Below the pieces are notes generated by a model. It worked only from the letters and a program-made list of their open reading frames with translations, was not told the DNA's origin and did no database searches. A program made the position numbers and the translations under genes. Shown one piece after another: positions 480 through 42,500 of a stretch of 64,000 nucleotides of DNA (positions are counted from its first letter, which is position 1; every line of letters begins with the position of its first letter). Source of the stretch: Symbiodinium sp. CCMP2592 (taxonomy: Eukaryota > Sar > Dinophyceae > Suessiales > Symbiodiniaceae); assembly GCA_905221615.1 (NCBI GenBank), contig CAJNDT010002890.1:952001-1016000 (forward strand), in the 5' to 3' direction.

Positions 480-534
480 GCTCCGCGGATGGCCGTTGCG
501 GGCTTTTCCGGCAAATTCCCAGGCGATCTGAAAG
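480..534 (+). CDS. PKS exon A: KS N-terminus
   Basis: Encodes [15 protein letters not shown], matching the KS start (IAIxGMxxRFPG). Acceptor TTTGCCAG, donor AAAG|GT. The split Gly codon is completed by the next exon (K-G-A-D-S-V). Confidence 0.9.
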
Positions 535-3500
535 GTTTTGGCCCTCTTGGTTTCAGGGGTTTCTACACGATTCTAAACCCTAAGCCCTAAACCTTTAAAC
601 CCCTAAACCCTTCAACCCCTAAACCCCTTAAGCCCTTAAACCCCTAAACCCGGCCCTGGCAGAGAGTGTAGAGCTCAGGTTTTCTAAAAGTTCCCAGTCT
701 TTTGCGGCTGCCGGACCTTTCGGGCCGGTGGTCAGAAGGTTTTGGGTTTAGGGTTTAGGGTTTAAGGCTTAGTGTTTAAGGTTTAGGGTTGCCTTAGTAT
801 AGGGGTTTTAATAACTACCAATTATTTTTGTGGGGTTCCTGACCATAATTATAGTATACTGGGCGCCCAAAACCCTATTCTGATTCCCAGACCCCGGGAG
901 GATGCAAAAAGTAGACCCCATTCCTATAAAGCACCTTTAGTAGTATAGGGTCCCAAATTGGGCGATCTACTTTCTGGAGCCTCCCGGAAGTCTGGGATAA
1001 AAAACCCATATTAAGCCTTGAACCCTTAAACCCTACACCCTAAACTTATGATTTAGGGTTTAGGGTTTAGAGAGGTGTGTACTCCAGCTTTCTGGGCATG
1101 GAGTTTTGTTTTAGGTCAGGGTTTCGGCTGGTTCAGCTTCAGGCATCTGGGGGTTGGCCCTTAGTTAGAGCTTGGGTTTTAGTGCTTCAGGGCCTGGGGC
1201 GTGGGAACTCGAGATTTGGGATTTTCGGTTTAGGGCCTTGCGCCTTCAGTCGAGTTCTGCACAAAAGGAACGGAAGAAGTAAAGAACGGCTCTCTCTCTC
1301 TCTCTCTCTCTCTCTCTCTCTCTCTCTCTCTCTCTCTCTCTCTCTCTCTCTCTCTCTCCCAGAATTTCGACCCGCAACCCCAAGACTCCACACGCTAGGC
1401 CCTTCATCGCCCTCCTTCAGCATTAAGCCCTAAGCCCTGAACCTCAAAGGCGCGAAACCCCAAGTCCTTGGTGCAGGAGCCGACTCCGTGCAGGATTTCT
1501 GGGAGAACATCCAAAGGTCGGGAGAATTCTTCAGATGTATTGGGCTCTGCTTAGGGCTTCAGGATTCCAGAAGCGACTGAGTGCCAAAGACTGAAGTATA
1601 AAAAAAAAAGTGTGAGTTAATGTTTCAAACTTTTGTCTTGTTTTTCATTGATGAACTAATTAAGTACTTGCTGACTTAACTTGTTAGTTGATACTAAGTA
1701 TTCAACTCTTTCTTTCTCTGTCTCTCTCTCCCTCTCTCTATCTACTTCTATGTATATATATATATGTATACATATATCCATATTGTATGTGGATGGTTGT
1801 CAAAATTATGGTCCCTTTTTGGCTCCCTAATATAGTGCGGCACCTAATATTTAGGGCACCCAAAAAAAGGGGCCCTAATTTTGACAACTACCCATGTGTG
1901 TATGTGCAGAAAGCCCAAGGCCCAGGCCCGGGAACGCCCCAAACCCCGAAAGATCTCAGCCTTTCCGTCTTCGGGCCGTTTAGGGTTTAGGGGTTCAGGG
2001 CTTTAGGGGTTTAGGGGTTTAGGGTTTAGAATTTTAGGGTTGAGGAGTTTAGGGTCTTAGGGTTTAGGGGTTCAGGGGTTTAGGGTTTAGGGTTTAGAAT
2101 ATTAGGGTTTAGGAGTTTAGGGTTCAGGGGTTCAGGGGTTTAGGGTTTAGGGTTTGTAGGGTGTAGGAGTTTAGGATTTGGGTTCAGGGTTTCAAGGGGT
2201 TTTATGTAGTCGGTCGCTGGCCCAGGCATGAGAGCTCAGCACGTCTAGTTTTGACGAATGGGCACTTCGAGGGGCGAGCTGCTTCTCCGGATTAAGTTCT
2301 ACGGGAATTTTTGCAGGGTACCCCAAACCGCTCAGACACCGAATAATTTTGATGTTTGCCCGGTGGCCGAATCAGGGGTGGCGATGACTGTTGTCACCGA
2401 TCTCCCTCTGTACATATACGTAAGTACAAGCCCAGCCGTAGGCTACAGATGGGATGTACTGTCGATGCTTGGAGGGTCGGGGGACTTAGTAACTAGTTAT
2501 TTTGGAGACTTATAAGTACCATAGCCCCAACTAGGATCCCTTTTAGGGTCCTTATAACTCTACTTATTACTTACTTACTAAGTCGCGGGATTCTCCTATC
2601 AAGCGTATACGGTACGGAACACTGCCCTCTGGATCCCAACAAGTTAAACCCCAAGCCCTTAACCCTCAAACCTAAACCGACCAGGGCAGCTGTGTCGGCG
2701 ACGTTCCTCTCCAAGGACTTCTTGCGACGTGCCTCGCCTTTGGCATGGTTTAGACGAATTGCTTGAGGACCTCTCAGTGAAGGCATCTAGCTTACATTAA
2801 AGTCTCCGGTATCTTATTATGAATTGAGCACCATCTTTTGATTAAGGGTGTGGGGCTGGGGGGTTTAGGGTTTATGGCTCAGGGTTTACTGAGTTGGGAT
2901 TCTTTCTCTATTAGAGACATTCCGCAGCCCTGCACATGGAAACCCCAATCCAAGACCTCATGCGCTGCACTCTGCACCCTGCTAGCTAGACATGCAGAAT
3001 TTGTTGCAGCTAGTTCCCACTTCTTAGATAGTGAACGGGGGAACTTTCAACTTTTTGGCCTTATATGGGGGTTTTCGAAAATAGGGGTACCTTAATTGGG
3101 GGTCCTTATAATAAGAATCCTACCATTTAGGGTACTATATTAGGGTCCCCTATGTTCGGAAACTCCCATATATTAGCTTTATCTTAGAAAGTTAGAACTT
3201 TTTGGGGCCCGGTTGTTGAAGACGAGAGACTTCAATCATCCCAACCCAAGCATGCTTCAAGCCTGGCTCCAGCCTACAGTAGAAGCCTTTAAGGGATCTA
3301 TACGGGCTCTTTTAAGGAATCTATAAGGTACCCTAAGGGTTTAGGGTTTAGGGTTAAGGGTAGGATTACAGTAGAAGCCCAAAAGTTGGAAACCCCATAG
3401 CCTCGATCCTCAAGGGTAATGTATAAGGAATCCCAGCACCATTTGGCCTTAATCCGGTTTCCAACTTTATGGGGTTTACTGTACATATTCTGAGCCATAG

Positions 3501-39500: not shown

Positions 39501-42500
39501 TTTGGGGTTCAGGGTTTGGGGTTTTGGGGTTTAGAGTTTAGGCTTTGGGGTTTAGGGCCCTACTTCGTGAACTCAGAGCTGGAGCTTCTGGAACAGTATC
39601 TGGAACGAATGAAAACCCAGAGACTCCAAAACCCCTGAATTAAGGAATATACCTTAAATTATAGTAGGGATCCTATTATTAAGGTATATTCCTTAATTAA
39701 GGGGTTTTGGAGTCTCTGGGAACTCCTAGGCTTACGGGTTTAGAGGGATTTGGAGGTTCTGGGTTTTAGGCTTCAGGGTGTGGGGTGTAGGGTTCAGGTT
39801 TCACGGCTTAGGGTGTAGGGCTCAACGTTTGTAAGGCCCTAAACAAGAAGCCCGCACCAGCTTCCTGAGATCCAAAATTCCAAGTCCAGGGGCACTTTGG
39901 TGGCACTTTGGGATGCTCTTAACATCGGTTTAGGGTTTAGGAACTTTAAAGTCTTTAAAGATGTTCCTGATGGTTCTTCGGGGTAACTGAGTATGTTGAC
40001 ATTGCTGGTGCTTATCGGCGGTGATGCTACGGTTTCTCACTGCTGCTGGTGCTTGATGCGTGATGCTGCCAATATAGCTCCGATACTTTTCCTGCAGTTG
40101 TGGTTATTGCTGTTGTCATCCTTACTCAATCACGCTGATAGTGATACCAATATCACCACCGGACTGTTGATCCCTAAACCCTGAAACCCTAAACCGTCAG
40201 TGGAATCAAGGCAGCCTCCGAAGTCTTGAATCCCACATGTTACGATACTCGCAGGTCTGCCAGTGGAACAAGAAGAAGCCTCTTCGTGCAGGACGGAGCA
40301 TGCTGCATCCTATGACTTGTACCCCTAACCCTAAACCCTAAACCCTAAACCCCTAAACCCTAAACCCTAAACCCTAAACCCCTAAACCCCTAAACCCCTA
40401 AACCCCTAAACCCTAAACCCCTAACCCGCAAAGCTCTCTAAACTTTAAGCCCCTACAATTCAAGCGTCTTCAAAACCAAGACCACTCTGAAGCCGACGGT
40501 CTGTGAGGTTTGCGTCCTCCAACGTGCATGTCCCAACTAGTCCTAACTTGCTGTAGGGTTTAGAGTTTAGGGTTTGGTAGTTCGTCCGATAACAAACTCA
40601 CAAGCACAGCTTGCATGGCCTGTGACCAAAGCCCGGTAGCAGTCGCGGCCTTACACCCTTACGGTACGTGCTCGCGTTTTGTAAATTTTCCGTCTATGTG
40701 ACCGCCGTTGCCAGAATTGCGCACTGAATCCTAAACCCAACCCTTAACCCTGAACCGTGTACTGAATCCATGCTAATGCTTTAGGCCGCGGCTGAAGGCT
40801 TTTGTTGGCGGGTTTCGGGGCTTTCAGGCTTCAGGGTTTAGGCCTTAAGATCTTCGAAGTTACAAGATCCGAACTGCGGCATCTTTGCACATGGGCTCAG
40901 AGTTTAGGTTTCCAGTTTCCCATAAGCCTTGAACCAGGAGTCAGCTCCTTTGGAATCGGCGGCACCAACGCTCATACCATTCTTGAAGAGGCCTGTGGGC
41001 TGAACAGTGAAGTGATGGGTGCTTCTGTCCAGGTGCTGCTACTGCTACTGCTACATCTGGGGGCTTGTAGGGGAGGACGGCCAAGTCAAGGAGCCTGCAT
41101 TCGGGGGTTTAGGGTTGGGGGTGCAGGGTGTACAGAGACTCAGAAGTCTAGACGATGGTCTTCCTTCATCAATGTGTGCTTGCGACGGGTTGGTTGTGGC
41201 CTCTTCGGACAACCGGCAACGTACCCTAAGTAGCTGGGGCCTCCTTGAATGTCAAATTCTTAACCTTCGATTGGATCGGCTCTCCCAGCTTTCTCCAATC
41301 AGGTGAACAATCCTACCGTGGACATCTACAGCACGGCAAAGAAGCTGCATCCCCGGGACAAGTGAATGACGGCTTCCTTCTTTCTTGATTGGGCTTGCCT
41401 TAGGCTCAACTGTTTTGCTAAGCACTTCTTAAAGGTCGATCTCACAAAGGGTTCCAGGTAGGCTGAGAAGAATCTGATTTTGGGTTCTGGGACTTAGATC
41501 GGGAACGGGGGAACTTTAAACTTTTTGGCCTTATATATTAGCTCGAAAGTTTGAACTGTTTGGGGCCCGGTTGTTGAAGAAGAGAGGGGAATGTTTATTC
41601 TATGTCGTTTTGGGGTTTAGGTCGGTTTACGTTCTGGATTTGGGTCTCGTGCGGTAGACTTCGGACTCTTGGTTCATACCTGCTCAAGTTCCGAAGGACT
41701 GAGACTCTGAGACAGAACGTAGACCACGGATCAAGAGCCCCTGCCCTTTATAGGGATTGATTGTGGTAGAGATCCTTATGAGAAAGGGGCTTATGAACGA
41801 GGGGTCTATTTTACAAAGCTTAAGCCGTCGCCTTAGCAGCTTGAAGACTTTAAGGGCTTTGGGTTTGGCCCCAAGGACGCAACCCTTCCTGAACTTGGGG
41901 TGTTCAGGTGCTCTCCCCGTCCCCTAAACCCGGAGAACTTAAATTTTAAACTTAAAACTTTCTATCAAAAAGTAGTTTAACCCAAATACCTTCGTCGTGT
42001 AAAAGCAGATCCTTCGTCGTGTAAGGCAAATCCTATGTCGTATCAGGCAAATCCGCCGTTTGTTCCTTTCGACGAAGGATTTGCCTTATGCTCATGCGAC
42101 GAAGGATTTGCCTTATACGACGAAGGTATTGGGCAAACCCTTCGTCGTGTAAGGCAAATCCTTCGTCGTATAAGGCAAATCCTTCGTCGTATAAGGCAAA
42201 TCCTTCCCCAGCCCACAGCCCCGCCCCCAGCCCTCCAGCCCAGCCTCCAGCCCAGCCTCCAGCCCAGTCTCTAGCCCAGCCGCCAGCCCCAGCCCAGTCT
42301 TCGGCCAAGCCTGCAGCCCCCAGCACAGAATCCAGCCCAGCCCGCCAAATGGACAACAAAGGACATTAACAAAATGGGGCTATCATTTTCTCAGAAAGCT
42401 AAGCTGTCCTGGCCTTGACTGCAAAATGGACAACAAAGAGTGTTTAGGGCTGAGTCCCTAAACTCTAAACTCTTGTAGAACCCTTGCAAAAGTTCCTTGC

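Follow-up and report, generated by a model that had tools for sequence, protein, structure and literature searches.

A complete type I ketosynthase (KS) domain divided among 29 exons is found on the + strand of a 64,000-nt stretch of DNA from Symbiodinium sp. CCMP2592, the window of this analysis (C2890:952001-1016000 in a 1.098-Gb assembly). A refined profile-spliced alignment places it at 480-40990. The exons average about 45 nt, and very probably belong to a working dinoflagellate type I polyketide synthase gene made up of the KS, an acyltransferase (AT) and perhaps a preceding acyl carrier protein (ACP) domain. Its structure would best be read as the splicing ordinary to dinoflagellates, taken to an extreme of small exons. 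The 21-nt dinoflagellate spliced leader occurs at 429 exact sites in the genome (217+212; a control pattern, 0), which identifies the genome as that of a dinoflagellate.

The ketosynthase domain and its exons

The domain was read with a purpose-written spliced profile aligner and a profile of 16 KS proteins, from which the closest relative, the EukProt prediction P0001, was excluded. Introns were required to begin with G[TCA] and finish with AG and could take any phase; the frame was imposed and stops were penalised. All 433 of 433 profile columns were covered at 489-40993 on the + strand, with a score of 999.8 half-bits. The top score among 31 null runs was 188; these comprised 16 dinucleotide shuffles (mean 163, sd 11, maximum 179), 12 column-shuffled profiles (mean 161, sd 12, maximum 188), two reverse complements (184 and 174) and the downstream 23 kb (134). 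A preliminary description had proposed a whole KS lying in order on the + strand over some 40 kb, which these scores bear out. It had also proposed about 26 micro-exons of 15-85 nt, with some 3% of the interval coding: the micro-exon architecture stands, as do the sizes (20-75 nt as measured, mean 45.4, median 43) and the coding share (3.25% of 480-40990), while the count is revised to 29 in the refined chain. The 28 introns are 127-5615 nt long (median 1220, mean 1400), with phases 15/7/6 and a density of about 21 per kb of coding DNA. Twenty-seven of the exons were already in the chain built without P0001; P0001 had to join the profile before exon 24 and the correct start of exon 28 were recovered, and model versions disagree by 5-8 nt at edges of exons 2, 3 and 29.

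The spliced model matches Pfam KS-N (PF00109) over positions 5-251 of 252 and KS-C (PF02801) over 1-118 of 119, along with the beginning of the C-terminal extension. A profile gene model with GC/GT/GA-AG splice sites, as had been suggested, yields both halves of the domain near-complete. The Cys, His, His and Lys columns, which we take to be the catalytic residues of a KS, are occupied as earlier proposed, by Cys in exon 13, His in exon 22, and His and Lys in exon 25. All four align to PDB 7zma.

Frame, AG acceptors, G[TCA] donors and the stop penalty are imposed by the aligner, and so these features prove little. Other properties are free of the model. AG|G forms 26 of the 28 acceptors, the G after AG not being demanded (intron background 0.38, p=2e-9). 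The donors divide into 16 GC, nine GT and three GA; G[TCA] was required, the proportions were not. GC content at codon positions 1, 2 and 3 is 0.60, 0.45 and 0.76, vs 0.48 in introns.

P0001 is 535 aa long, and its first 330 residues were aligned to the gene: 322 of 326 aligned residues are identical to the spliced KS, with a single 8-residue gap. It begins in exon 7 and diverges after exon 28, thereby holding 22 of the 29 exons; the first six exons and the KS end are missing from it. Residues 464-512 of P0001 have 58-63% identity to places on at least 11 contigs (C1561, C306, C860, C4612 and others). Such matches suggest misprediction in that part, and the C-terminal tail is likely a repeat read as protein.

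Annotation based on open reading frames (ORFs) had been expected to miss the gene completely. With 22 exons present in P0001 that was overstated; for a six-frame search it was correct, in that searching the whole genome in six frames for Pfam KS gave 54 places (47 in open frames of at least 100 codons), of which 0 fall at this locus. Because such a search missed a whole domain, KS counts obtained in this way can be too low. A whole-genome search with P0001, in which 81 of 99 candidates were scored, revealed no second close copy, and KS matches elsewhere had 27-41% identity.

The analysis also took in four further loci that have short KS-type matches. C153 (L037) carries a KS chain whose exons measure 24-128 nt and whose introns are mostly shorter than 500 nt (score 228, without a null run). 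Telomere-type repeats are almost absent there, with seven G-strand and three C-strand hexamers in 10 kb. Since this chain has neither the repeats nor the long introns, short exons can be separated from long introns filled with repeats. C1094 has a KS chain of mixed, partly weak exons, and the C51 locus is presumably thiolase-like. On C1846 a KS with exons mostly below 115 nt extends over about 36 kb (250 and 345 vs 98 and 95 in reversed sequence). In the C1846 prediction, at L039:1054-1135 on the minus strand, DAQGASSL stands in place of the DTACSSSL of KS; the Cys is absent from the spliced prediction, and this KS may be without condensing activity. Given similar KS at other loci, the gene described here is the extreme of a class and not unique.

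Flanking domains and intron content

After exon 29 a linker and then an AT follow in the same exon style (378 vs nulls of 166 and 189; the AT profile also takes in the end of the KS). The AT continues past the window to about 80.3 kb, with motifs RAFHS at 70627, SNLTGQW at 76001, YWTKHMR at 76989 and EVGPGN at 80299. Thirty exons are listed after exon 29, of which 18 score at least 25 half-bits; the remaining 12, being weak, could be erroneous. On these spliced models the KS is part of a longer predicted KS-AT gene running beyond the window. Past the AT, a post-AT profile gave 156 vs 98 and 93 vs 59, partly from the AT end, and nothing is claimed past 80.3 kb; KS, AT and ACP profiles gave scores near null downstream of 71 kb. 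Between the linker exons and the first AT exon, 48860-49325 holds about 155 imperfect trinucleotide repeats of GTA/GTT type, which produce long false ORFs on either strand.

An ACP-like domain containing ENFFDLGGHSALA (89 vs 45) is spelled upstream by four exons between -53.3 and -46.2 kb, and the KS-AT gene is perhaps preceded by this ACP in the same transcript. Runs at lower intron penalties gave other chains (230 vs 122-190 at penalty 14, 148 vs 61-96 at 18), so that the ACP depends on the high-penalty runs. An upstream KS (81 vs 62) and AT (72 vs 64 in reversed sequence) are not claimed, and convincing exons of an AMP-binding domain were not found in the 60 kb upstream.

The introns carry palindromic elements, often several in one intron, and degenerate arrays of TTTAGGG, the dinoflagellate telomere repeat (PMC11453091). 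There are 112 inverted pairs in 41 kb, some of which pair TTTAGGG with CCCTAAA arrays. In intron 8, 9509-10228 consists of 17.5 copies, 97% alike, of a 41-bp unit that is composed of TTTAGGG-type pieces.

Intron 16, bounded by a direct repeat, looks like a tandem duplication of an exon piece bearing a splice site. With intron 16 excluded, tandem duplication found no general support in the comparison of intron start with next exon (p=0.42) or of intron end with previous exon (p=0.92); one of six flank bins, 24-36 nt, gave p=0.045.

Intron 23 owes its length to a 3.3-kb insert that opens with a full 21-nt spliced leader and closes with an A-run (34513-34524). The insert resembles a captured RNA element or spliced-leader mRNA. 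It contains an orphan ORF of 463 aa (31276-32667), for which 0 of 7997 scored candidates reached E<=0.001, and a second ORF (32639-33844) that is RS- and T-rich; no Pfam family was found in the insert. Searches for tRNA genes and Rfam families found nothing.

Table 1. Features of the window, in window positions; the basis for the KS exons is the profile-spliced alignment
Feature	Position	Strand	Remarks
KS exon 1	480..522	+	start 480 or 489
KS exon 2	1477..1516	+	3' edge 1516 or 1521
KS exon 3	2685..2728	+	5' edge 2685 or 2690; lowest KS score, 17
KS exon 4	3788..3830	+	
KS exon 5	4685..4717	+	
KS exon 6	5529..5565	+	
KS exon 7	7571..7590	+	20 nt, ASLMDP
KS exon 8	8383..8436	+	
KS exon 9	10303..10361	+	
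KS exon 10	11658..11695	+	
KS exon 11	12545..12598	+	
KS exon 12	14050..14106	+	
KS exon 13	16046..16117	+	active-site Cys, NSACSSAL
KS exon 14	17621..17667	+	
KS exon 15	18559..18601	+	
KS exon 16	19965..20004	+	
Intron 16	20005..20131	+	127 nt, 14-nt direct repeat (GGTGACTCTGTGGC) at both ends
KS exon 17	20132..20190	+	
KS exon 18	21780..21824	+	
KS exon 19	22583..22609	+	
KS exon 20	23237..23264	+	
KS exon 21	24537..24580	+	final 8 residues not in P0001
KS exon 22	26453..26518	+	active-site His, VECHCTGT
KS exon 23	29126..29155	+	
Insert in intron 23	31211..34524	+	looks like captured element: spliced leader, orphan ORF, terminal A-run
KS exon 24	34771..34793	+	23 nt, AGSDATV, detected only with P0001
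KS exon 25	36928..36994	+	Lys and second His, SVKGNIAH
KS exon 26	38033..38062	+	
KS exon 27	39343..39417	+	
KS exon 28	40255..40291	+	
KS exon 29	40938..40990	+	3' edge 40990-40998
KS-AT linker exon	42682..42712	+	5' edge uncertain, 42644 or 42682
KS-AT linker exon	43756..43815	+	
Linker exon, DFAYTLQA	45410..45435	+	5' edge 45389 or 45410
Linker exon	47517..47566	+	5' edge uncertain
AT exon, FVFPGQGS	50209..50302	+	5' part uncertain
AT exon	50985..51018	+	
AT exon	51720..51764	+	
AT exon	54527..54573	+	
AT exon	59177..59209	+	
Weak AT exon	60961..60990	+	score 11.6
AT exon, GHSLG motif	61678..61715	+	
AT exon	62457..62528	+	further AT exons beyond window

Orientation of telomere-type arrays around exons

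In a k-mer comparison, CCCTAAA-type words were found to precede acceptors. Telomere hexamers of the G and C strands number 988:520 in the first halves of KS introns and 371:1014 in the second halves, and the net order is G then C in 20 of the 28 introns and opposite in eight. When the exon set was shifted in 50-nt steps, the observed mean (400-nt flanks) was reached in 0 of 1612 shifts. Flipping whole array blocks was evaluated over 51 exons, which include the 18 AT exons scoring at least 25 among the 30 listed, and the mean over these was reached in 0 of 5000 trials. By part, block flips gave p=0.0004 for KS, 0.03 for AT and 0.0008 for ACP, and sign tests gave 19:10 (p=0.05), 12:6 (p=0.13) and 4:0 (p=0.08), respectively, with p=0.005 for all 51.

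The 400-nt statistic was chosen after the k-mer result, and so this gene is exploratory and C1846 serves as replication, with 11 exons selected by eye from two profile runs. At 400 nt the C1846 mean was 27.7 (null sd 8.4), with 0 of 5000 flips reaching it and eight of 11 exons positive. With flanks of 200 and 400 nt its means lie above every one of the 5000 flips, and with 800 nt p=0.023; by sign, ten exons are positive and one zero at 200 nt, the ratio is 8:3 at 400 nt (p=0.08), and 7:3 with one zero at 800 nt (p=0.13).

The polarity is stronger at 100-400 nt from the splice sites than in the nearest 100 nt. Within 400 nt, AG|G has a density of 16-21 per kb before acceptors and 32-43 after donors, and CTAAA occurs 8-14 times per kb ahead of acceptors against 3-7 times beyond donors. 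GC skew within 100 nt, taken outside the arrays, agrees in sign between KS and AT exons, and in C1846 is present on the downstream side only; because of this skew, part of the signal may not be the telomeric repeat as such.

Every TTTAGGG unit contains a false acceptor, TTTAG|GG, which would be the reason that near exons only one orientation is tolerated, with CCCTAAA ahead of the acceptor and TTTAGGG beyond the donor. Perhaps CCCTAAA acts as a branch-point-like or pyrimidine-like stretch. It is possible, though rather doubtful, that telomere-type repeats help to mark exons, and that exons of 20 nt can thus be found among kilobase introns that offer few other cues; the pattern, first seen in one gene, was repeated in another, and from it a role in splicing is inferred.

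Alternative readings and known systems

As we read the gene, transcription of its pre-mRNA would span more than 80 kb, GC/GT/GA...AG|G introns would be removed by the spliceosome usual in dinoflagellates, and the protein would extend an acyl chain. Palindromic elements, TTTAGGG-type arrays and a single spliced-leader insert would have made the introns longer. Several points weigh against this account. The gene model was read from genomic sequence, and its frame and scarcity of stops are partly imposed by the aligner. P0001 itself differs at four residues and lacks eight residues of exon 21, and because it contributed to the refined profile, its agreement with exons 24 and 28 cannot count as independent. 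The upstream ACP, 46 kb from the KS, emerged only when intron penalties were high. Finally, the scarcity of C-strand arrays after donors is not explained by decoy avoidance.

Array polarity would also be expected if intron ends paired in RNA, 5' (GGGUUUA)n with 3' (UAAACCC)n, closing the intron so that the splice sites meet, and inverted repeats near intron ends are reported in Amoebophrya (PMC7789003). Within introns, however, the arms are uncorrelated (rho -0.03) and both are strong in only five of 28; the weak correlation is across exons (counts 0.35, p=0.07; net 0.40, p=0.04), where pairing would loop exons out. Pairing predicts paired arms, and on the lack of correlation it is rejected as improbable.

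A second proposal concerns the origin of the introns, as recent insertions of introner-type transposons that split once-long exons. Introners are reported in dinoflagellates (PMC11453091), intron 16 has its 14-nt direct repeat at the ends, and matched intron ends repeat more than permuted ones (3.07 vs 2.45, p=0.004) when intron 16 is included. Without it the difference vanishes (27 introns, 2.67 vs 2.44 permuted, p=0.11), and the palindromic elements sit inside introns, often several in each. A general introner origin, having failed this junction-repeat test with intron 16 as the sole exception, is quite improbable, and the introns do not resemble recent introners, intron 16 perhaps excepted.

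We also give very little credence to a decayed KS gene, with exons still recognisable and splicing or translation lost. Decay would fit the HCTGT of exon 22 where the PDB relative has HGTGT, and the abnormal ending of P0001 after exon 28; it is opposed by the stop-free 433 codons, the strong GC at third positions, a splice signature intact in 28 of 28 introns and an AT whose reading frame is open like that of the KS.

The introns might instead be healed breaks, in which telomerase added TTTAGGG to both ends before these were joined as in a telomere fusion. This would give the order of G strand then C strand, and telomeric repeats are reported to be inserted at break repair in mammals (PMC2246262, PMC7215372). 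It too predicts paired arms and is rejected with their lack of correlation: both arms occur together in five of 28 introns, the net order is opposite in eight of 28, and the polarity weakens toward the splice sites, so that this origin is very unlikely. A chance chain of ORF scraps, suggested by the shortness of each exon and by the one in 29 that scores below 20 half-bits, is virtually excluded for the whole KS by the 31 nulls, the AG|G excess and the match to P0001, single weak exons after 41 kb being uncertain.

The working, ordinarily spliced gene favoured here would place a core enzyme domain in 29 exons averaging 45 nt with degenerate donors, which strains models of exon recognition, and its oriented telomere-type arrays are a concrete, testable feature for splicing or intron origin. 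In the literature searched, with most subscription journals outside it, we found no report of a KS gene of micro-exons, nor of telomere repeats oriented relative to exons. What is new is the orientation of arrays relative to exons; intron-rich KS genes are already known, as in Symbiodinium (Breviolum) minutum, where some also have AT and ACP (PMC4647583), and the present gene resembles these. Its donor mix and AGG acceptor match those of Symbiodiniaceae such as Cladocopium goreaui (donors GC 43.6, GT 36.6 and GA 19.8%; AGG acceptors 96.1%; PMC9412976). In the same source, exons and introns of C. goreaui average 120 and 839 nt, vs 45 and 1400 nt here, and with 16.2 introns and 2018 bp of coding sequence per gene the intron density is about eight per kb of coding DNA, vs about 21 here. 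Exons average 99.8-185 nt in six other dinoflagellate assemblies (PMC7557087) and 101 nt in the intron-rich alga Amorphochlora (PMC12730881).

Micro-exon genes of Schistosoma, with exons of 3-81 bp and introns of up to 5 kbp (PMC10526429), work alike, and the present gene is not a member of that group: they encode secreted proteins, whereas here a conserved KS-AT enzyme is encoded in an unrelated lineage. Introners (PMC7789003, PMC9860276) share with it the repeat-rich introns in a dinoflagellate, and differ in the junction repeats, which apart from intron 16 do not exceed those of permuted ends here. Interstitial telomeric sequences (PMC7215372) likewise place telomere-type repeats away from chromosome ends; unlike them, the repeats described here lie in introns, in bulk, and are oriented relative to exons.

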